Of a stretch of 64,000 bases of DNA, positions 31,174-40,674 are shown in pieces. The notes beneath the pieces were generated by a model. The model was not told the origin of the DNA. It did no database searches and was given only the letters and a program-made list of their open reading frames with translations. Made by a program: the position numbers and the translations under genes. This stretch comes from an uncultured Pelagibacteraceae bacterium. Lineage in GTDB: Bacteria > Pseudomonadota > Alphaproteobacteria > Pelagibacterales > Pelagibacteraceae. Location: NCBI GenBank assembly GCA_902589155.1, contig CACIRV010000002.1, positions 62,001 through 126,000 of the forward strand, in the 5' to 3' direction. Numbering within the stretch: the first letter of the stretch is position 1; the number at the start of each line of letters is the position of its first letter.

Positions 31174-31971
31174 TTAATCGTTTTTTAAACTTGGAATAAT
31201 TGTTCTTAATTTCTTAGGTAAACTTGGGTCAATTGATGTTGTAATAACTCCTTCTTTTTTATTTAATGATTTTAAAATTTTCCCATCAGGAGAAACAATT
31301 AATGAATTTCCAAATGTTTTTCTTCCATTATAATGTTTTCCTGCCTGAGCAGGTGCAAAGATATAACAAAAATTTTCAATTGCTCTAGCTTTAAGCAAAC
31401 TGTGCCAATGCCTTTTGCCAGTTGTTTCTGTAAAGGCAGAAGGAACTGCCAAAAATATTGATCCTTGTTTTGATAATTTTCGGTATAAATTTGGAAATCT
31501 TAAATCATAACAAATAGTTAAACCTAGTTTACCCCAAGGTAGTTTAAAAGATTTAATTTTTGTTCCAGCTGTGTAAGTTTTGGACTCACAATATTTTTCA
31601 TTTTTATTTAAGGTAACATCATACATATGAATTTTATCATAGTAACATCTTATTTTTCCATTTTTATCAATCAAAACAGATCTGTTTACTAGTTTATTTT
31701 TAGAAACTTTTATCGTCAGAGAACCAACTAATATCCATTTTTTGTATTTTTTTGCTAATTCTTTTATTCCTTTCAAATAAATATCTTTACTCATTGAAGT
31801 ACAAATTTTTAATAATTGTTTTTTATTTAATAAAAATAAAGAAGAAATTTCAGGAGTTAAAATAAAATCTGTTTTTTGTTTTACAGCTTTCAAAATCAAT
31901 CGCTTAGTACATTTTAAATTATATTCAATATTATTATTTGAACGTAGCTGGATACAAGAAACTTTAAACAT
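31174..31971 (-). CDS. Carbon-nitrogen hydrolase (nitrilase/omega-amidase-like)
   Basis: Glu-Lys-Cys triad in LTPEISS, YDKIHMYD, LTICYDLRFPNLYR. Confidence 0.88.
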   Translation of the reverse strand: MFKVSCIQLRSNNNIEYNLKCTKRLILKAVKQKTDFILTPEISSLFLLNKKQLLKICTSMSKDIYLKGIKELAKKYKKWILVGSLTIKVSKNKLVNRSVLIDKNGKIRCYYDKIHMYDVTLNKNEKYCESKTYTAGTKIKSFKLPWGKLGLTICYDLRFPNLYRKLSKQGSIFLAVPSAFTETTGKRHWHSLLKARAIENFCYIFAPAQAGKHYNGRKTFGNSLIVSPDGKILKSLNKKEGVITTSIDPSLPKKLRTIIPSLKND

Positions 31972-32035
31972 ATTAATATAATTTAACTATTTGTTGTAAT
32001 ATGCAAGATTTAATTGTATTCAATTATTATCCATT

Positions 32036-32911
32036 ATGAACAACAATAAATCTCTAACCTTAGTCTTCGGTGCATATTTTAGTCATAAGCATATATATAG
32101 AATCTGTAAAAGTATAAATAAAAAATTTAAAATTATTGTTGTAGAAAATTCTTTAGATAAAAAATTTAAAAAGGATATAGAAAAAAAATTTAAAAATACA
32201 AAAGTAATCATTCCTAAAGAAAATGTTGGACTTGCAAAAAGTTTTAATATTGGAATTAAAAATTCAAAAACAAAGTATGTTTATCTCAATTGTCCAGATA
32301 TGGCTATTTCAAACAAATCTATCAATGATTTGATTGATTGTGCAGAAAAACTAAAAAGTTTTTGTATTTTGGCACCAAATTATAAAGATACATCTAACTT
32401 CAATAATTATGTGGGAAATGAATATGTTTTGCAAAAAACCCCATCGAAAATTTTAAAATACCGTCTAAAGAAAGTTGATTTCATAGATAATAGCTTTTTA
32501 ATGCTAACAAAAAAAGCAAAAAAATACTTATTTGATGAAAAATACTTTTTATATTCTGAAACAATGGATTTTTGTTTTCAATTAAAAAAATTTAATGAAA
32601 AAAGTTATGTTTCTGATAAAATAAGATTTAAACACTATGTGTCGGACTCAGTTGATAAAAAATACTCTTTATTATCAAAGTTAACTAGAGCTTGGCATTA
32701 TAATTGGTCAAAATTTTATTATTATAAAAAAAATTATAATTATTTATTTGCTTTAAAAAAAATTATTCCAAATATTATCAAATCAATAAAGAAGATTATC
32801 TTTAGTTTGATTACGTTTAATAAGGAAAACTTAATCTTTGGATTAATCGAGTTTTATGGGATTATTTGTTCTATTTTAAATTTAAAATCTTTTTATAGAC
32901 CAAGAATGTGA
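32036..32911 (+). CDS. Glycosyltransferase family 2-like
   Basis: IIVVENSLDKKFKKDI, NVGLAKSFNIGIKNSKTKYVYLNCPD; C-terminal TRAWHYNWSKFYYYKK...SFYRPRM. Confidence 0.8.
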   Translation: MNNNKSLTLVFGAYFSHKHIYRICKSINKKFKIIVVENSLDKKFKKDIEKKFKNTKVIIPKENVGLAKSFNIGIKNSKTKYVYLNCPDMAISNKSINDLIDCAEKLKSFCILAPNYKDTSNFNNYVGNEYVLQKTPSKILKYRLKKVDFIDNSFLMLTKKAKKYLFDEKYFLYSETMDFCFQLKKFNEKSYVSDKIRFKHYVSDSVDKKYSLLSKLTRAWHYNWSKFYYYKKNYNYLFALKKIIPNIIKSIKKIIFSLITFNKENLIFGLIEFYGIICSILNLKSFYRPRM

Positions 32912-32924
32912 AAAGTTTAAAGCA

Positions 32925-33602
32925 TTAATTTGTACGCATTTTTTTTTCACTAAATTTAATTAAGTTGTGTACTAAAAAGGTCAAAAGCAAATAAATTCCT
33001 CCAGCTACAATAAAGACTTCTACAGGCTTAAAGGTAGTGGAAATTATATATTTTGCTACTCCTGTTAAGTCCATTAAAGTAACTGTACTTGCTAATGAAG
33101 TGCCTTTAAGCATTAAAATTATCTCGTTTCCATAAGCTGGTAAGGACTGCTTAATGGCAATTGGTATTTGAATTTTATAAAATATAATTTTACTTGAGAT
33201 ACCAAGACTTTTACCAGCTTCAATCATTCCAGGTTTAATGGTCTGAAAAGCTGATCTTAAAATTTCAGAAGTGTAAGCTCCTGTGTTAAGTGAAAAAGCT
33301 ATTATGGCACACCAGTAAGGTTCTTTTAATATAGTCCATAAAAAAGTTGATCTTAAATATTCAATTTGTCCTAATCCAAAATAAATAATAAATATCTGAA
33401 CCAGAAGCGGTGTTCCTCTAAAGATATAAGAAAATCCATAAGAAAAATTATTTATGAACTTTTTCTTGCTCAATCTCATTAATGCAAAAATCAATCCAAT
33501 TATTAAACCAAAAATTAGAGATAATGATAAAAGTTTTAAAGTTGTTAAAGTAGCATTTAGTAACTTTGGTAAACTTTCAATCATTAAATTTAAGTCCATC
33601 AA
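32925..33602 (-). CDS. Polar amino-acid ABC transporter permease (HisM-like)
   Basis: FRGTPLLVQIFIIYFGL, AGKSLGISSKIIFYKIQIPIAIKQSLPAYGNEIILMLKGTSL. Confidence 0.88.
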   Translation of the reverse strand: MMDLNLMIESLPKLLNATLTTLKLLSLSLIFGLIIGLIFALMRLSKKKFINNFSYGFSYIFRGTPLLVQIFIIYFGLGQIEYLRSTFLWTILKEPYWCAIIAFSLNTGAYTSEILRSAFQTIKPGMIEAGKSLGISSKIIFYKIQIPIAIKQSLPAYGNEIILMLKGTSLASTVTLMDLTGVAKYIISTTFKPVEVFIVAGGIYLLLTFLVHNLIKFSEKKMRTN

Positions 33603-34291
33603 AAACCCCTACTATAATTTTTTTCTAATTTGTTAAGTATCTTCATGCTTAGAAAAGTTAAGATTAAGTATAAAAGTGCAGCAAATGAATAAAAAAACAG
33701 AGGATCTCTCGTCGAACCAGCGGCAATATAAGATTGTCTCATTATCTCGACTAGACCAGTTACAGAAATAAGAGAAGTATCTTTAAGTGTGATTTGCCAA
33801 ACATTACTTAGGTTTGGTAATGCTAATCTCAACATTTGAGGAATTATTACTTTGAAAAAATATATATACTTTTTAAATCCTAAAGCTTTACAGGCTTCGA
33901 ACTGCCCTCTATCTATTGATTGAATAGCTCCTCTAAAAACTTCTGTAGAATAAGCTCCAGAAATTATGCCGATTGCAAATGAACCAGTAATAAAAGCATT
34001 GATCTCTATATATTCATGGTATCCAAATATGCTTGCCACAAACATAACGGCACCAGTGCCTCCAAAAAAAAATAAATAAATTACTAATAATTCAGGAACA
34101 CCTCTAATAACAGTAGTGTAAAAATTTGCGATAAAATTAAATATTTTATTCTTAGATAGTTTTAAGGGAGTAAAAATTATTGAGAATAAAATTCCTATCA
34201 ACATAGCTGTTATTGAAACAGCTATCGTCATTAAAAATGCTGCGAATAGTTCGTCACCCCAACCTTTTGAACCAAAATAAAGAAGTTCCAT
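33599..34291 (-). CDS. Polar amino-acid ABC transporter permease (HisQ-like)
   Basis: IRGVPELLVIYLFFFGG, ACKALGFKKYIYFFKVIIPQMLRLALPNLSNVWQITLKDTSL; start placed at MELLYFGSKG (34291) because the ORF-track start (34321) would run through a hairpin. Confidence 0.85.
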   Translation of the reverse strand: MELLYFGSKGWGDELFAAFLMTIAVSITAMLIGILFSIIFTPLKLSKNKIFNFIANFYTTVIRGVPELLVIYLFFFGGTGAVMFVASIFGYHEYIEINAFITGSFAIGIISGAYSTEVFRGAIQSIDRGQFEACKALGFKKYIYFFKVIIPQMLRLALPNLSNVWQITLKDTSLISVTGLVEIMRQSYIAAGSTRDPLFFYSFAALLYLILTFLSMKILNKLEKNYSRGF

Positions 34292-34299
34292 AAAGAAAA

Positions 34300-34319
34300 G
34301 GCGGTTATAAATAACCGCC
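34300..34319 (-). terminator. Attenuator/terminator-like hairpin between SBP gene and permease gene
   Basis: ggcggtta-taaa-taaccgcc, perfect 8-bp stem, then TTTTCTTT and the permease ATG on the - strand. Confidence 0.7.
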
Positions 34320-34334
34320 ATTTCAAGTATTTAA

Positions 34335-35189
34335 TTACATAGAGGCGTCAAAGCCAAAATGTTTAATAGCAAGTTTGCTAATTATTCCTTTTTTTCTAGC
34401 AGTATCGATAGCTCTATTAAAATCTTTTAATAGTTTTGCATCTCTTTTGCCAACGGTACTAGAATTGTCACCTTTTCTTATTCCGATTCCAACTCCATTA
34501 CCAAAAGCACCGCCGGAGAAAGTAGGTCCAACTAAAACCACAGGTTTTTTAGATTTAGCTGCATAATCTGTAAAAGCAACTGCTGCAGCTAAAGCTGCAT
34601 CAATTCTTCCTGCTGCTAAGTCTAAATTAACTTCATCCTGAGTTTTGTATTTTCTAACAGTCACATTTCCAACATCACCTGACTCTAAAAAGTTTTGGTG
34701 AATTGTTCCTGTTTGAACCCCGATAGTTTTACCAGCTAAAGCCTTAGTTAGTTGATCTAAAGTTTTTTTAGCTGCATTCTTATTAGATAAACTTAAAGAT
34801 TCTACTGTTTGTAAATTTTCAAGACTTGAGCCTTTCATTACCGCTAGCGATGCTACTTCATCAGCATAACCTTGAGAAAAATTAATTGTTTTTAATCTTT
34901 CATCAGTAATAGACATTCCCGCCATAATTAAATCGAATTTTCTCATCAACAAAGCCGGTATCATTCCATCCCAATCTTGTTCCACTATAGTACACTCGTG
35001 CTTTAAAATTGAACAAAGCTCTTTAGCAAGATCTACTTCAAATCCAATTAAGTTTCCTGAAGAGTCTTTTGCGTTCCATGGTGGGTAAGCTCCCTCTGTA
35101 CCAATCCTAACCTTATCAGAATATGCATTTCCAATTAATAGAAAAGATATAGTAACAAAAGAGATAAATAGTTTTTGTAATTTACTCAT
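34335..35189 (-). CDS. Polar amino-acid ABC transporter substrate-binding protein (Arg/Orn/octopine type)
   Basis: VRIGTEGAYPPWNAKDSSGNLIGFEVDLAKELC, DGMIPALLMRKFDLIMAGMSITDERLKTINFS. Confidence 0.88.
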   Translation of the reverse strand: MSKLQKLFISFVTISFLLIGNAYSDKVRIGTEGAYPPWNAKDSSGNLIGFEVDLAKELCSILKHECTIVEQDWDGMIPALLMRKFDLIMAGMSITDERLKTINFSQGYADEVASLAVMKGSSLENLQTVESLSLSNKNAAKKTLDQLTKALAGKTIGVQTGTIHQNFLESGDVGNVTVRKYKTQDEVNLDLAAGRIDAALAAAVAFTDYAAKSKKPVVLVGPTFSGGAFGNGVGIGIRKGDNSSTVGKRDAKLLKDFNRAIDTARKKGIISKLAIKHFGFDASM

Positions 35190-35267: not shown

Positions 35268-36308
35268 TTATTTCATGATCGAAGACGCAAAATTCCACTT
35301 ACAGTCAAAACTTGGTATATAAGCACCCGAAACTTTTACATTACCAAAACTTTTGTCTAGCACTTTACACCAATTTTCTACCTGCTTTGGCTTCTTGTCC
35401 TTGCTACCTACTTGCGCAGTAATAATTCCACCTTTTTTAAGAATTCTTTTAAGACCTTTCATATTTTTTCTAGCTAGATCAATACAATATTGATCATCAT
35501 TTAAATCTACAAAAATTTTATCATATTTAGAGTCCTCTATTGATTTAATGCTCTCAAAAGCATCTCCCCAGAAAGTTTTAACCTTATTACTTTTCTTAAC
35601 TTTAGAGCAAACTTTTGGAAGGTGTTTAAAACAAGTGTCAACGATTTCAGGATCCAGTTCGTACCAATCTATATAATTGGCGTTATTTTCTAAACACTCT
35701 CTAGCAACTCCACCATCACCACCTCCAATAATAGCAACATTTGAATTCTTTTTACTTAAATCATAGCTAGATTTAAAAAAGCTAGAGCTATAAATTTTTT
35801 CATCTTTCTCAGCTACTTGTATTTCATGGTCAATAAATAAGGCATTGCCGAACTCTTCAAGTTTCATTATTTCAACAAATTGGCCTACTTTTGATGTAAA
35901 AGTTTCAAGTACGTCGTTAACTACATAATATTTTTTTTGACCTGGAGTGCTATAAATATCATCATAAAGACCTACGCTACTTCTATCAAAGCTATTTGTT
36001 ACTACTCTTTCGTGTTGAATTTCTTTTTTTAAAATCTTTAAGGCAATCTTAGGATGAACTTTTCCACACGTGAAGAAATCAAAACTAATTACGCCTCTTT
36101 CAGGAAATGTATGAAAACTAAAATGGCTTTCAGCAAGTAATGCAACTAATGTAAAACCTTGAGGTTCAAATTTATGAGAACTAACGTTAAGTATTTCTAC
36201 TTTAGCGGCTTTAGCAATTTTATATATTATTTTTTCGTAGAATAAAGGAGTATAATCTTTCTTAACTCCAAGAAAATCTATTGTAATATGCTCACCTACT
36301 TTTATCAT
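35268..36308 (-). CDS. Fused S-adenosylmethionine decarboxylase (class 1b) - spermidine synthase-like protein
   Basis: N-terminal ESHFSFHTFPERGVISFDFFTCG (pyruvoyl Ser, His +5, Cys +20) and C-terminal aminopropyltransferase fold IIGGGDGGVARECLENN. Confidence 0.88.
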   Translation of the reverse strand: MIKVGEHITIDFLGVKKDYTPLFYEKIIYKIAKAAKVEILNVSSHKFEPQGFTLVALLAESHFSFHTFPERGVISFDFFTCGKVHPKIALKILKKEIQHERVVTNSFDRSSVGLYDDIYSTPGQKKYYVVNDVLETFTSKVGQFVEIMKLEEFGNALFIDHEIQVAEKDEKIYSSSFFKSSYDLSKKNSNVAIIGGGDGGVARECLENNANYIDWYELDPEIVDTCFKHLPKVCSKVKKSNKVKTFWGDAFESIKSIEDSKYDKIFVDLNDDQYCIDLARKNMKGLKRILKKGGIITAQVGSKDKKPKQVENWCKVLDKSFGNVKVSGAYIPSFDCKWNFASSIMK

Positions 36309-36314
36309 TAAAAA

Positions 36315-36959
36315 TTACCCTTTTTTATAATTTTTAAACTTTCCTAAAACTATTTTCATTTCTTTTTTTGAAAGAATCTTAGGTATTCCAATTCTTAGGG
36401 CATTTATATATTGATGGCAAATATTTTCGATCTCCTGAGCAAGTTCAAAAGTCTTTTCTAAATTTTTTCCAAAAGCAACCTGGCCGTGATTAGCAATTAA
36501 ACATGCGGTTCTATTTTTAAGAGCTTTAATAATATTTCTTGAAAGATTTTTTGTTCCAAAAGTTGAGTATTTACTACATTTAATGTCTTCTCCTCCGGCT
36601 ACTGCAACCATATAGTGAAAAGCAGGTATATTTTTTTGATGCGTTGACACTGCTGTAGCGCAAGTTGAGTGGGCATGGACGATCGCCATAGCATCTTTTT
36701 TATTCACATATATATCTTGATGAAACCTCCATTCTGAGGATGGTTTGTTCTTTTTTTTGTCAAAGACTCCTTTTAAAGAAACAAAAACAATATCTTTAGT
36801 TTTTAATGTTGAATATTTCATGCCAGATGGAGTTATGTAAAATCCATCAACTCCTTTTTCTTTTGCTCTTACAGAGATATTTCCTGATCTTAAGGCGGAT
36901 AAATTAGTTATATTTAATTTTTTGGAATATTTTATTACTTCATTTTTTAACTTGCTCAC
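36315..36959 (-). CDS. Class II aldolase, FucA/Ald2-like
   Basis: SGNISVRAKEKGVDGFYITPSGMKY, VHAHSTCATAVSTHQKNIPAFHYMVAVAGG, YSTFGTKNLSRNIIKALKNRTACLIANHGQVAFGKNLEK. Confidence 0.85.
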   Translation of the reverse strand: MSKLKNEVIKYSKKLNITNLSALRSGNISVRAKEKGVDGFYITPSGMKYSTLKTKDIVFVSLKGVFDKKKNKPSSEWRFHQDIYVNKKDAMAIVHAHSTCATAVSTHQKNIPAFHYMVAVAGGEDIKCSKYSTFGTKNLSRNIIKALKNRTACLIANHGQVAFGKNLEKTFELAQEIENICHQYINALRIGIPKILSKKEMKIVLGKFKNYKKG

Positions 36960-38161
36960 TATAATATATGTTCTTTCATAAAGAGTGAGAAAGTTTTTTT
37001 AATATAATTTAAATCTTTGTTATTTAGTCCATGATGACAACCTATTAAAACACCATTACGCATTATGTTATTGCTATTTAACTCTGCATCTTTAACTTTT
37101 TTGTAGAATCTTTTTTTCATTATAGGTTGTCTTAAGATATTTCCAGTAAATATTGTTCTTGTCTGAATTCCTTTTTTTTCTAAAAAAATTTGTAATTTTT
37201 GTCTGTTTAATTTCACTCCATTTTTTATGATAATTGGATACGCTAACCATGCGGTAATAAGACCTTTTTGTTGAGAAGGTAAATCAAAATAATTAGGAAA
37301 ATTTGAAAAAAAATTTTTTAAATTAACAAAATTACTATTTCTCTTTTTTATACTTTTTGGAAGTTTTTTTAATTGTTCTAATGCAAAAGCTGCGGATATT
37401 TCCGATGGTAAAAAATTATACCCCATATCTGAGAATATATATTTTCCATCATAAGGTATACCGTCGACTTTTATGTTGAATCTCTTTTTTATACCTTCAG
37501 ATTCATTAAATATTGCCGATGATCTACCCCATCCTCTTAGAAGTTTTGCTCTTTCATAAGTTTTTTTATCATTAAAGCATACCATGCCACCAAATCCAGC
37601 TCCTGTTATTATATGGGATGCATACATGCTATTAGTAGTGATGTCTGAATATTTACCAAGGTTTTTTTTTTGAACCCTATATCCAATGGTATCAGCTGAG
37701 TCTTCAATAATTTTTATGTTTTTCTTTTTAGCTATTTGAAAAATATTTTTCCAATTAGGCACATTTCCTAATAAATTTGGAACCATTATTGCTTTTGTCT
37801 TTTTATTAATTGCTTTTTTAATTTGATCTATTTTTGCAACAAATGAATTACTTTCAACATCAATAAAATGAGGTGTTAAACCTAGTTGATAAATTGGAGC
37901 AACAGTTGTTGAAAAAGTTAAAGTCGGAGTTATAACCTCATCTCCTTTTTTAAGATTTAACGATGCAAGAGCTAACAAATTAGCCGAGGATCCTGAGTTA
38001 ACCATTAAGCCATATTTTTTTCCAAACAATTTGGAAATTTTTTTCTCTAGTTCCTTTACTAAAGGGCCATCTATAAGTGTTAAAGATTTGCTTTTTAACA
38101 CTGATAATGATGCATTAATTTCTTTTTTATTGTATATAGCTTTACCGTAATATATTTTCAT
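36959..38161 (-). CDS. DegT/DnrJ/EryC1/StrS-family PLP/PMP enzyme with His in place of the catalytic Lys
   Basis: MVNSGSSANLLALASLNLKKGDEVITPTLTFSTTVAPI fold; SMYASHIITGAGFGGMV has His where aminotransferases carry the Schiff-base Lys. Confidence 0.82.
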   Translation of the reverse strand: MKIYYGKAIYNKKEINASLSVLKSKSLTLIDGPLVKELEKKISKLFGKKYGLMVNSGSSANLLALASLNLKKGDEVITPTLTFSTTVAPIYQLGLTPHFIDVESNSFVAKIDQIKKAINKKTKAIMVPNLLGNVPNWKNIFQIAKKKNIKIIEDSADTIGYRVQKKNLGKYSDITTNSMYASHIITGAGFGGMVCFNDKKTYERAKLLRGWGRSSAIFNESEGIKKRFNIKVDGIPYDGKYIFSDMGYNFLPSEISAAFALEQLKKLPKSIKKRNSNFVNLKNFFSNFPNYFDLPSQQKGLITAWLAYPIIIKNGVKLNRQKLQIFLEKKGIQTRTIFTGNILRQPIMKKRFYKKVKDAELNSNNIMRNGVLIGCHHGLNNKDLNYIKKTFSLFMKEHIL

Positions 38162-39228
38162 TTAAATATTTTTTTTAAACTTTTTTCAGATGCTTCGCAA
38201 ATTCCTTTTTCTGTGATTAAACCAGTTACATATTTTGCTGGGGTGATGTCAAACGCTAAATTCAAAGCTTTGCTTTTTTCTGGATAGATTCTTACTGTTG
38301 CGACATTATTATTTTCGTCAACTCCTTCTACATGCGATAGTTCCTTGGAACTCCTTTCTTCTATCGGAATTTTTTTAAAGTCTTTAACACTCCAGTCTAT
38401 AGTCGAACTTGGGAGAGCTACGTAAAAAGGAACATTGTTATCTTTCGCAGCTAAGGCTTTTAAATATGTTCCAATTTTATTTGCTACATCTCCTGTCGAT
38501 AAAGTTCTGTCAGTTCCTACAATACACATGTCGACCTCACCTCTTTGCATTAGAATTCCTCCAGCATTGTCGGTAATAATTGTATTTTGTATCCCTTCTT
38601 CATTTAACTCATAAGAAGTTAGATTAGCACCTTGATTTCTTGGTCTTGTTTCATCCACCCAGACATGGACTTTAATTCCTTTTTGATGTGCATGATAAAT
38701 TGGTGAAGTAGCTGTGCCCCAATCAATTGTTGCAAGCCAACCAGCGTTGCAATGGGTTAAAATATTTACAGTATCTTTTTTTTTATTGGCTATTTCTTGA
38801 ATTATTCTTAGGCCATTTTCACCTATGTTTTTACAAAATATAACGTCTTCCTCTACGATCGCATTAGCTTCTTCTAAAGCCACCTTTAAAATGTTGCTGC
38901 TATTTATGCCTGATAGTTTTTTTATCATTCTATCTACTGCCCATTTTAAATTAATTGCTGTAGGTCTAGATGCTATTAAATCTTCACTGGATTTTTTTAA
39001 AAAAGATTGGTCATTATTTTCAAGAATAGATAAAACTATTCCATAAGCAGCCGTAGCTCCAATTAATGGGGCTCCTCTTACTTCCATTGTTTTGATCGCA
39101 TTAATAGAATCTTTAACTGTTTTTAAATCTTTAATAATAAATTGATGAGGCAATTTTGTTTGATCTATTATCTTTACTGTATTATGTTCAAACCAAATTG
39201 TTCTATAATTTTTACCGTTAATTTGCAT
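38158..39228 (-). CDS. mtnA: S-methyl-5-thioribose-1-phosphate isomerase
   Basis: MEVRGAPLIGATAAYG, LTHCNAGWLATIDWGTATSPIYHAH, VDETRPRNQGANLTSYEL, VGTDR. Confidence 0.95.
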   Translation of the reverse strand: MQINGKNYRTIWFEHNTVKIIDQTKLPHQFIIKDLKTVKDSINAIKTMEVRGAPLIGATAAYGIVLSILENNDQSFLKKSSEDLIASRPTAINLKWAVDRMIKKLSGINSSNILKVALEEANAIVEEDVIFCKNIGENGLRIIQEIANKKKDTVNILTHCNAGWLATIDWGTATSPIYHAHQKGIKVHVWVDETRPRNQGANLTSYELNEEGIQNTIITDNAGGILMQRGEVDMCIVGTDRTLSTGDVANKIGTYLKALAAKDNNVPFYVALPSSTIDWSVKDFKKIPIEERSSKELSHVEGVDENNNVATVRIYPEKSKALNLAFDITPAKYVTGLITEKGICEASEKSLKKIFK

Positions 39229-40106
39229 TATTTTTTAATAAGTGCTCTTCCTGCAATATGTTTTAATTTCTTTATAGTTTTCTTTGATCTTTTTTTTGAA
39301 TCTGTAATGATAGCAGTATCTAAACAATTATTTGCAGGATCTTTATCTATTGAAAAATCTTTAAAAGTTTTTATAATTTCTTTAATCATGTTTTGTGCAT
39401 TTGAAGCATTTTTTCGCAATGTTTGAACTACCATTGCCACATCAACTTCACTATGATCTGGGTGCCAACAATCATAATCAGTTACCATAGCAACTGTGCA
39501 ATATCTAATTTCTGCTTCTCTGGCTAATTTTGCTTCAGGCATATTTGTCATTCCAATCACGTCTGAATTCCATGATCTATATAAATTAGACTCCGCTAAA
39601 GTAGAAAATTGAGGACCTTCCATTACAACATAAGTTCCCCCAATTTGATGACTAATATTTAATTTTTTCAATGCTGCCTCGCAACATTCTGATAGACCAG
39701 GACTAGTTGGTTTAGCCATTGAAACATGAGCTACAATTTCTTCATCAAAAAAAGTTTTTACTCTTGAAAAAGTTCTGTCAATGAATTGATCAACAATTAC
39801 AAATTTTCCCGGATTAAGATCTTCCTTTAAAGAGCCTACTGCTGAGACAGAAATAATATCAGTTACTCCTAATTGTTTCATAGCATCTATATTTGCTCTA
39901 AAATTTATTTTGGTAGGATTGATTTTATGTCCTCTTGAATGTCGAGGAATAAAACAAATTTCTTCTTGTCCTAATTTTGCTATTAGAATTTCATCGGATG
40001 GTTTTCCCCAAGGAGTATTAATTTTTTTCCATTTAGTCTTTTCAAAGCCTTCCATTTTATAAAGACCACTGCCACCAATTATCCCAAGTTTTCTTTTTTT
40101 CATCAT
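39228..40106 (-). CDS. mtnP: S-methyl-5'-thioadenosine phosphorylase
   Basis: LGIIGGSGLY, PRHSRGH, YVVMEGPQFSTLAES, VIGMTNMPEAKLAREAEI, TDYDCWH. Confidence 0.95.
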   Translation of the reverse strand: MMKKRKLGIIGGSGLYKMEGFEKTKWKKINTPWGKPSDEILIAKLGQEEICFIPRHSRGHKINPTKINFRANIDAMKQLGVTDIISVSAVGSLKEDLNPGKFVIVDQFIDRTFSRVKTFFDEEIVAHVSMAKPTSPGLSECCEAALKKLNISHQIGGTYVVMEGPQFSTLAESNLYRSWNSDVIGMTNMPEAKLAREAEIRYCTVAMVTDYDCWHPDHSEVDVAMVVQTLRKNASNAQNMIKEIIKTFKDFSIDKDPANNCLDTAIITDSKKRSKKTIKKLKHIAGRALIKK

Positions 40107-40134
40107 TTAATTATTAATGCTTTTTTGTTAGAAC

Positions 40135-40674
40135 TTGAAGCTAAATATGGATTTAAAAAAAAATATCAGATCTATTCCAGACTACCCTAAAAAAGGCATT
40201 TTATTCAGAGATATTACTACTCTAATTAAAAATCCTGAGGCGTTTAAATATACAAATGATAAAATAATAGAATTATCAAAAAAATTAGAATTTGATAAAG
40301 TTTCAGCTATAGAGTCTAGAGGTTTTATTTTTGCATCTACAGTTTCCTACATTTTAAACAAACCTTTTATTTTACTAAGAAAAAAAAACAAACTTCCATC
40401 AGAAACTCATTCGGTTGATTTTAAACTTGAGTACGGTGAGGCAACTATTGAGGTACATAAAGACTCCATTTCTAAAGGGGAAAAAATCCTTGTAATAGAT
40501 GACTTGATCGCAACTGGTGGAACGGCAGAAGCTGCTGGAAAATTGATAGAAATATCTGGAGGAGTAGTTGCTGGATTTATTTTTGTAATCAACCTATTTG
40601 ATTTAGGGGGCAATAATCTCTTAAAAAAAAAGGGATACAAAGCTGAAAGTTTAATAGAATTTCCTGGTCATTAA
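40135..40674 (+). CDS. apt: Adenine phosphoribosyltransferase
   Basis: IPDYPKKGILFRDITTLIKNPEAF, VLVIDDLIATGGTA-type PRPP motif (ILVIDDLIATGGTAEAAGKL). Confidence 0.94.
   Translation: MKLNMDLKKNIRSIPDYPKKGILFRDITTLIKNPEAFKYTNDKIIELSKKLEFDKVSAIESRGFIFASTVSYILNKPFILLRKKNKLPSETHSVDFKLEYGEATIEVHKDSISKGEKILVIDDLIATGGTAEAAGKLIEISGGVVAGFIFVINLFDLGGNNLLKKKGYKAESLIEFPGH

Follow-up and report, generated by a model that had tools for sequence, protein, structure and literature searches.

SAR11 bacteria are among the ocean's most numerous cells and require reduced sulfur, and a gene cluster in one of them raises the question of how the MTA freed by spermidine synthesis is recycled and what becomes of its methylthio fragment. 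The cluster lies in the window, by which we mean the whole 64,000-nucleotide stretch analyzed here, from a SAR11 (Pelagibacteraceae) genome whose nearest records are Pelagibacteraceae single-cell genomes. Six open reading frames span 35268 to 40674: mtnP, mtnA, a DegT-fold gene, a FucA-like aldolase, and a speD-speE fusion, all on the minus strand and joined by overlaps of 1 to 4 bp or by a gap of 6 bp, and apt on the plus strand. MtnP (39228..40106, minus) scores 441 bits against NF006492 (cut-off, 437) and 317 against TIGR01694 (cut-off, 275) and is predicted by family to take the first step, MTA to adenine and MTR-1-P; MtnA (38158..39228, minus) exceeds the cut-offs of both PRK05720 (454 bits; cut-off, 271) and TIGR00512 (421 bits) and is the predicted isomerase of MTR-1-P to MTRu-1-P. 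The two entry enzymes of a DHAP shunt are thus present above curated cut-offs. The next step of that shunt would fall to the FucA-like gene (36315..36959, minus), whose class II aldolase domain was confirmed by HMM. SpeD-SpeE (35268..36308, minus) carries PF02675 at 7 to 109 and PF01564 at 171 to 339 in one protein, the SpeD half confirmed by TIGR03330 (94 bits; cut-off, 76) and the SpeE half by Pfam (Spermine_synth domain, PF01564/PF17284). Apt, the adenine phosphoribosyltransferase (40147..40674, plus; tool-called start, TTG 40135), scores 218 bits against PRK02304 (cut-off, 170) and 199 against TIGR01090 (cut-off, 186). Its conserved start is ATG 40147, and the divergent gap to mtnP is therefore about 40 bp instead of the 28 bp given in the preliminary description, which had correctly placed all six reading frames, five of them in one tight minus-strand unit and apt divergent. 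Rfam returned no riboswitch in the window, a tRNA being the sole match. After speDE, positions 31174 to 35189 hold a Lys/Arg/Orn-type ABC transporter (sbp plus two permeases) that also comes after speDE in most SAR11 genomes of genus g6, with a nitrilase nearby in some; its possible role is the uptake of polyamine precursors.

We compared this arrangement across 118 Pelagibacterales genomes, comprising the window's own assembly (778 kb, 70% complete) and others at least 85% complete; gene absence was judged from this whole set. MtnA is encoded in 84 of the 118 and the FucA-like aldolase in 70, while no mtnA was seen in the remaining 34; one genome (G078) is aldolase positive without a visible mtnA because its aldolase sits at a contig end. 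Among the 67 loci that hold both mtnA and the aldolase (window excluded), the aldolase adjoins speDE in 67 and follows mtnA in the same orientation in 67, with a gap below 400 bp in 63. Across 83 mtnA loci, mtnP adjoins mtnA in 80 and apt is divergent from mtnP in 76. These counts define the conserved unit as apt / mtnP-mtnA-aldolase-speDE, and because other SAR11 genomes repeat the core order at 67 loci, the arrangement is not due to chance. The operon is also an insertion hot spot (loci L016, L095, L100, L103, L110, L111, L112, and L116): hydrolases and tautomerase-like, PhyH-like, sulfatase-like, and asparaginase-like genes, along with a second His-type DegT, lie between mtnP, mtnA, and the aldolase (names assigned by eye, DegT excepted).

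The survey lends no support in this lineage to canonical methionine salvage, for which mtnB and mtnD were searched, to the MtnW branch, or to the MTA-isoprenoid shunt. None of the 118 SAR11 genomes carries mtnB or mtnD (ARD, acireductone dioxygenase) above cut-off, and none has a RuBisCO-like gene (PF00016). The preliminary description had called the aldolase FucA/Ald2-like rather than MtnB-like, a view that would have fallen had the enzyme grouped with MtnB and had mtnC or mtnD been present elsewhere. Run for mtnB and mtnD, the search found neither above cut-off, and the window aldolase scores 204 bits against the FucA family and 66 against MtnB, so the call stands.

The active site agrees with this family assignment. 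Aligned with Escherichia coli FucA, the aldolases of the window and of 15 other SAR11 genomes keep H92, H94, and H155, which we take to be the zinc ligands, the presumed phosphate residues N29, S71, and S72, and the presumed catalytic residues E73, Y113, and Y209. The gene thus encodes a FucA-type aldolase with intact catalytic and zinc residues in linkage with mtnA, as expected of a DHAP shunt. Arginine replaces FucA Thr26 in all 16 SAR11 aldolases compared, and a change in specificity is possible. We then placed the enzyme in a tree of 49 sequences in which characterized Ald2 was represented by E. coli S88 ald2 (L235, 40370 to 41011). The window aldolase groups with 23 others, all mtnA linked (94/83), apart from FucA and from the sugar-operon copies; the branch that joins its clade to other mtnA-adjacent alphaproteobacterial aldolases is unstarred (94/83). 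E. coli Ald2 joins E. coli FucA (100/99), which suggests that MTA-linked aldolases have separate origins. In this phylogeny, which the preliminary description had called for, the window enzyme separates from FucA copies and no single Ald2 clade emerges, so that its function is better judged from genomic context than from the tree. From that context we predict an aldolase of MTRu-1-P (and of 5-deoxyribulose-1-P) that would form DHAP and methylthioacetaldehyde.

A different enzyme occupies this position in other SAR11 genomes. In genomes that encode mtnA without the FucA-like aldolase, a 677-residue gene separates mtnA from speDE and is oriented convergently to mtnA. Its product fuses a class II aldolase to a short-chain dehydrogenase, scores 906 bits against NF006192 (cut-off, 639) and 442 bits against the RhaD-ADH model TIGR02632, below that model's cut-off of 568; its motifs are HTH and NHG for metal, TGGFGAIG for nucleotide, and the YxxxK pair. 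We found it in 14 of the 118 SAR11 genomes. All 14 belong to the 15 that encode mtnA and lack the FucA-like aldolase, and none of the SAR11 genomes positive for the FucA-like enzyme has it. The fused gene is mostly in the aldolase's slot; in G103 and G124 it lies 85 bp from speDE, though away from mtnA, and in G041, which belongs to another family, it comes after mtnA in the same orientation. On an MtnA tree built by a quick method and with many open forks, aldolase type changes nine times, with at least six of these changes forced by starred branches.

The same exclusivity holds across the class. In a survey of 337 Alphaproteobacteria genomes from 242 genera, mtnA is present in 165. The fused enzyme occurs in 64 genomes, 62 of which also carry mtnA (P = 5e-20), and the FucA-like aldolase occurs in 102, of which 94 carry mtnA (P = 5e-28). 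The mtnA carriers divide into 61 with only the fused enzyme, 93 with only the FucA-like aldolase, 1 with both, and 10 with neither (P = 2.5e-33). These P values ignore shared ancestry, and the repeated swaps therefore weigh more than the exponent; seven families (f26, f58, f62, f67, f68, f69, and f97) contain different genomes of each type. Of the genes that could be located, 28 of 56 fused ones follow mtnA within 3 kb and in the same orientation, and 60 of 86 FucA-like ones adjoin mtnA. Individual loci, selected manually among 267 plasmid records, illustrate the linkage. The fused gene is beside mtnA in Ruegeria sp. AD91A, falls within mtnK-mtnA clusters on plasmids of Agrobacterium sp. MA01 (L234) and Mariluticola halotolerans (L233), and accompanies mtnK in Ensifer; the copy in Rhizobium leguminosarum lies with other sugar genes. 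The L233 and L234 clusters also hold a sugar ABC transporter, RuBisCO-like genes, and split transketolase-like genes, an apparent methylthioribose utilization locus.

Three other readings of the FucA-like aldolase have to be weighed against a role in MTA recycling. It shares a superfamily with MtnB and gives a weak match to the MtnB HMM, well under the cut-off of 137 bits, but a dehydratase of canonical salvage is scarcely credible in a lineage with no mtnB or mtnD above cut-off and in an enzyme that keeps the FucA catalytic and zinc residues. Identity as an aldolase for fuculose-1-phosphate or another sugar, located here by chance, would fit the enzyme's top family, FucA, and its homologues in sugar operons (43 to 45% identity), which include the plasmid copies that we used for comparison only; linkage to mtnA throughout SAR11 and in most locatable alphaproteobacterial cases, the rarity of carriers without mtnA, and the separation from FucA and sugar-operon copies in the tree make this highly improbable. 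The remaining reading concerns the substrate. The MtnP-MtnA-aldolase trio might mainly clear the 5'-deoxyadenosine of radical SAM enzymes, yielding DHAP and acetaldehyde as in Drd-type salvage, with MTA secondary. The window aldolase matches PDB chain 6btd (134 bits), which is annotated as fuculose phosphate aldolase and is presumably DrdA. The same families do serve 5'-deoxyadenosine salvage in Bacillus thuringiensis, where DrdA uses the deoxy substrate (PMC6079011), and the DHAP shunt handles both MTA and 5'-deoxyadenosine (PMC10986504). The constant association with speD-speE, whose product generates MTA, and with apt, together with a first enzyme that scores as an MTA phosphorylase equivalog, nevertheless makes a mainly 5'-deoxyadenosine role rather unlikely; 5'-deoxyadenosine may be a co-substrate, since sequence distinguishes neither its use from that of MTA nor 5-deoxyribulose-1-P from MTRu-1-P.

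The DegT-fold gene (36959..38161, minus) lies within the overlapping operon, and the preliminary description had counted it in the pathway under the label of a DegT enzyme. Membership in the pathway is not supported, and the description needs correcting at one active-site residue. Its best NCBIfam match is RfbH (314 bits, under the cut-off of 423) and its nearest PDB relatives are E1 (3bcx) and ColD (2gms); the window's SMYASHIIT aligns with SFYPAHHIT of E1, placing histidine where aminotransferases have the PLP lysine, as in an RfbH/ColD-type 3-dehydratase. The window protein lacks the [2Fe-2S] cysteines of RfbH/E1: opposite the E1 segment GRDCYCAPGCDNTC it reads GRSSAIFNESEGI, and only Cys195 and Cys375 are present. 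The window-type gene occurs in 10 of 61 relatives and, among these, is inside the operon only in L016 and L032 (93 to 96% identical), as it is in the window. A PMP-type elimination of methanethiol from methylthioacetaldehyde by this enzyme would give an oxygen-tolerant release of sulfur, and it is chemically attractive: the leaving group is beside a carbonyl, as in ColD, the protein is a dehydratase of the His type that lacks the iron-sulfur cysteines of E1, and a distinct His-type DegT (38% identical) occupies the same slot in G112 (locus L112). We rejected this candidate on synteny and regard it as very unlikely, since 66 of 67 other SAR11 loci do not have the gene in this slot, its homologues elsewhere adjoin glycosyltransferases and rmlA/rmlB-type genes, and many unrelated passengers enter the operon. 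In L025, the operon lacks DegT, which lies about 4 kb off in a sugar cluster. Given this synteny and the unrelated inserts, we treat DegT as a passenger, probably a surface-sugar 3-dehydratase inserted into the operon of the window and its near relatives.

With DegT set aside, the observed gene content, order, exclusivity, and active-site residues are consistent with a SAR11 operon for polyamine synthesis and MTA recycling on a DHAP-shunt-type route, which we consider likely, its substrates and reactions all being predictions; the DHAP-shunt reading of the core is well supported at this level. SpeD-SpeE would decarboxylate AdoMet and transfer the aminopropyl group to give spermidine, freeing MTA. 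Phosphorolysis by MtnP would release adenine, to be reclaimed by Apt, and MTR-1-P, which MtnA would convert to MTRu-1-P for cleavage by the FucA-like aldolase to DHAP and methylthioacetaldehyde, as Ald2 does. The earlier proposal that MTA production and the recycling of adenine and DHAP form one unit is supported. Capture of methanethiol by MetY, which is encoded in 113 of the 118 SAR11 genomes, is a possible fate of the sulfur fragment. In other SAR11 and Alphaproteobacteria, the fused enzyme would take the aldolase step and, by analogy with RhaEW, yield DHAP and methylthioacetate. The aldolase reaction of the shunt is established in Rhodospirillum/Rhodopseudomonas and in E. coli (PMC5893883, PMC10986504).

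What is new here is the mutually exclusive fused aldolase/short-chain dehydrogenase; the SpeD-SpeE fusion was already known. The repeated swap of aldolases suggests that MTA recycling also runs in a second version that has not been described. On balance, we favor the view that Alphaproteobacteria, including SAR11, have a second MTRu-1-P aldolase, this fused enzyme, which has repeatedly displaced the FucA-like one and would couple the step to NAD, taking MTA to DHAP and methylthioacetate instead of methylthioethanol. We found no open-licence paper that joins Pelagibacter with the DHAP shunt and none that joins RhaEW with methylthio compounds; the literature search covered open-licence papers, and novelty is accordingly provisional. 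If the proposed route is correct, SAR11 cells recover adenine plus a triose phosphate for each spermidine they make, and the C2 methylthio fragment that is shed may be a source of volatile sulfur; in lineages with the fused enzyme, the fate of MTA sulfur would change. The enzymes that release methanethiol at the end of the aerobic shunt have been stated to be unknown (PMC5893883); the fused enzyme is a concrete candidate for oxidizing the methylthio fragment in some lineages, and our findings make part of that question directly testable.

Several known systems bear comparison. The window's SpeD-SpeE is the same two-domain protein as the SAR11 fusion of Green et al. 2011, assayed as a polyamine synthase according to its citation in PMC8437039; here, it stands in fixed linkage with MTA recycling, a linkage that we did not find described in the open-licence papers searched. 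The inserted DegT has the fold of ColD and RfbH (E1), with histidine for the PLP lysine, and differs from E1 in lacking the iron-sulfur cysteines. The DHAP shunt of ExPEC E. coli, Rhodospirillum rubrum, and Rhodopseudomonas palustris (MtnP or MtnK, MtnA, and Ald2) uses the same MtnP-MtnA pair and a FucA-type aldolase and, like SAR11, has no MtnB/MtnD route. In contrast to those systems, the SAR11 genes belong to a streamlined marine lineage and are co-operonic with the SpeD-SpeE fusion, with apt divergent, and the SAR11 aldolase does not form one clade with E. coli Ald2. The 5-deoxyribose salvage of B. thuringiensis (DrdK/DrdI/DrdA) employs the same isomerase and aldolase families and the same chemistry, whereas phosphorylase entry and speDE linkage in SAR11 suggest that the main source is MTA. 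For the fused enzyme, the closest counterpart is RhaEW (YuxG), which has the same architecture and converts rhamnulose-1-phosphate and NAD+ to DHAP and lactate, with no activity with NADH (PMC3870299). From this product and NAD+ dependence, the fused enzyme is predicted to couple aldol cleavage to NAD-dependent oxidation and would yield methylthioacetate; it differs from RhaEW in its best model, NF006192 rather than TIGR02632, and in its linkage to mtnA.
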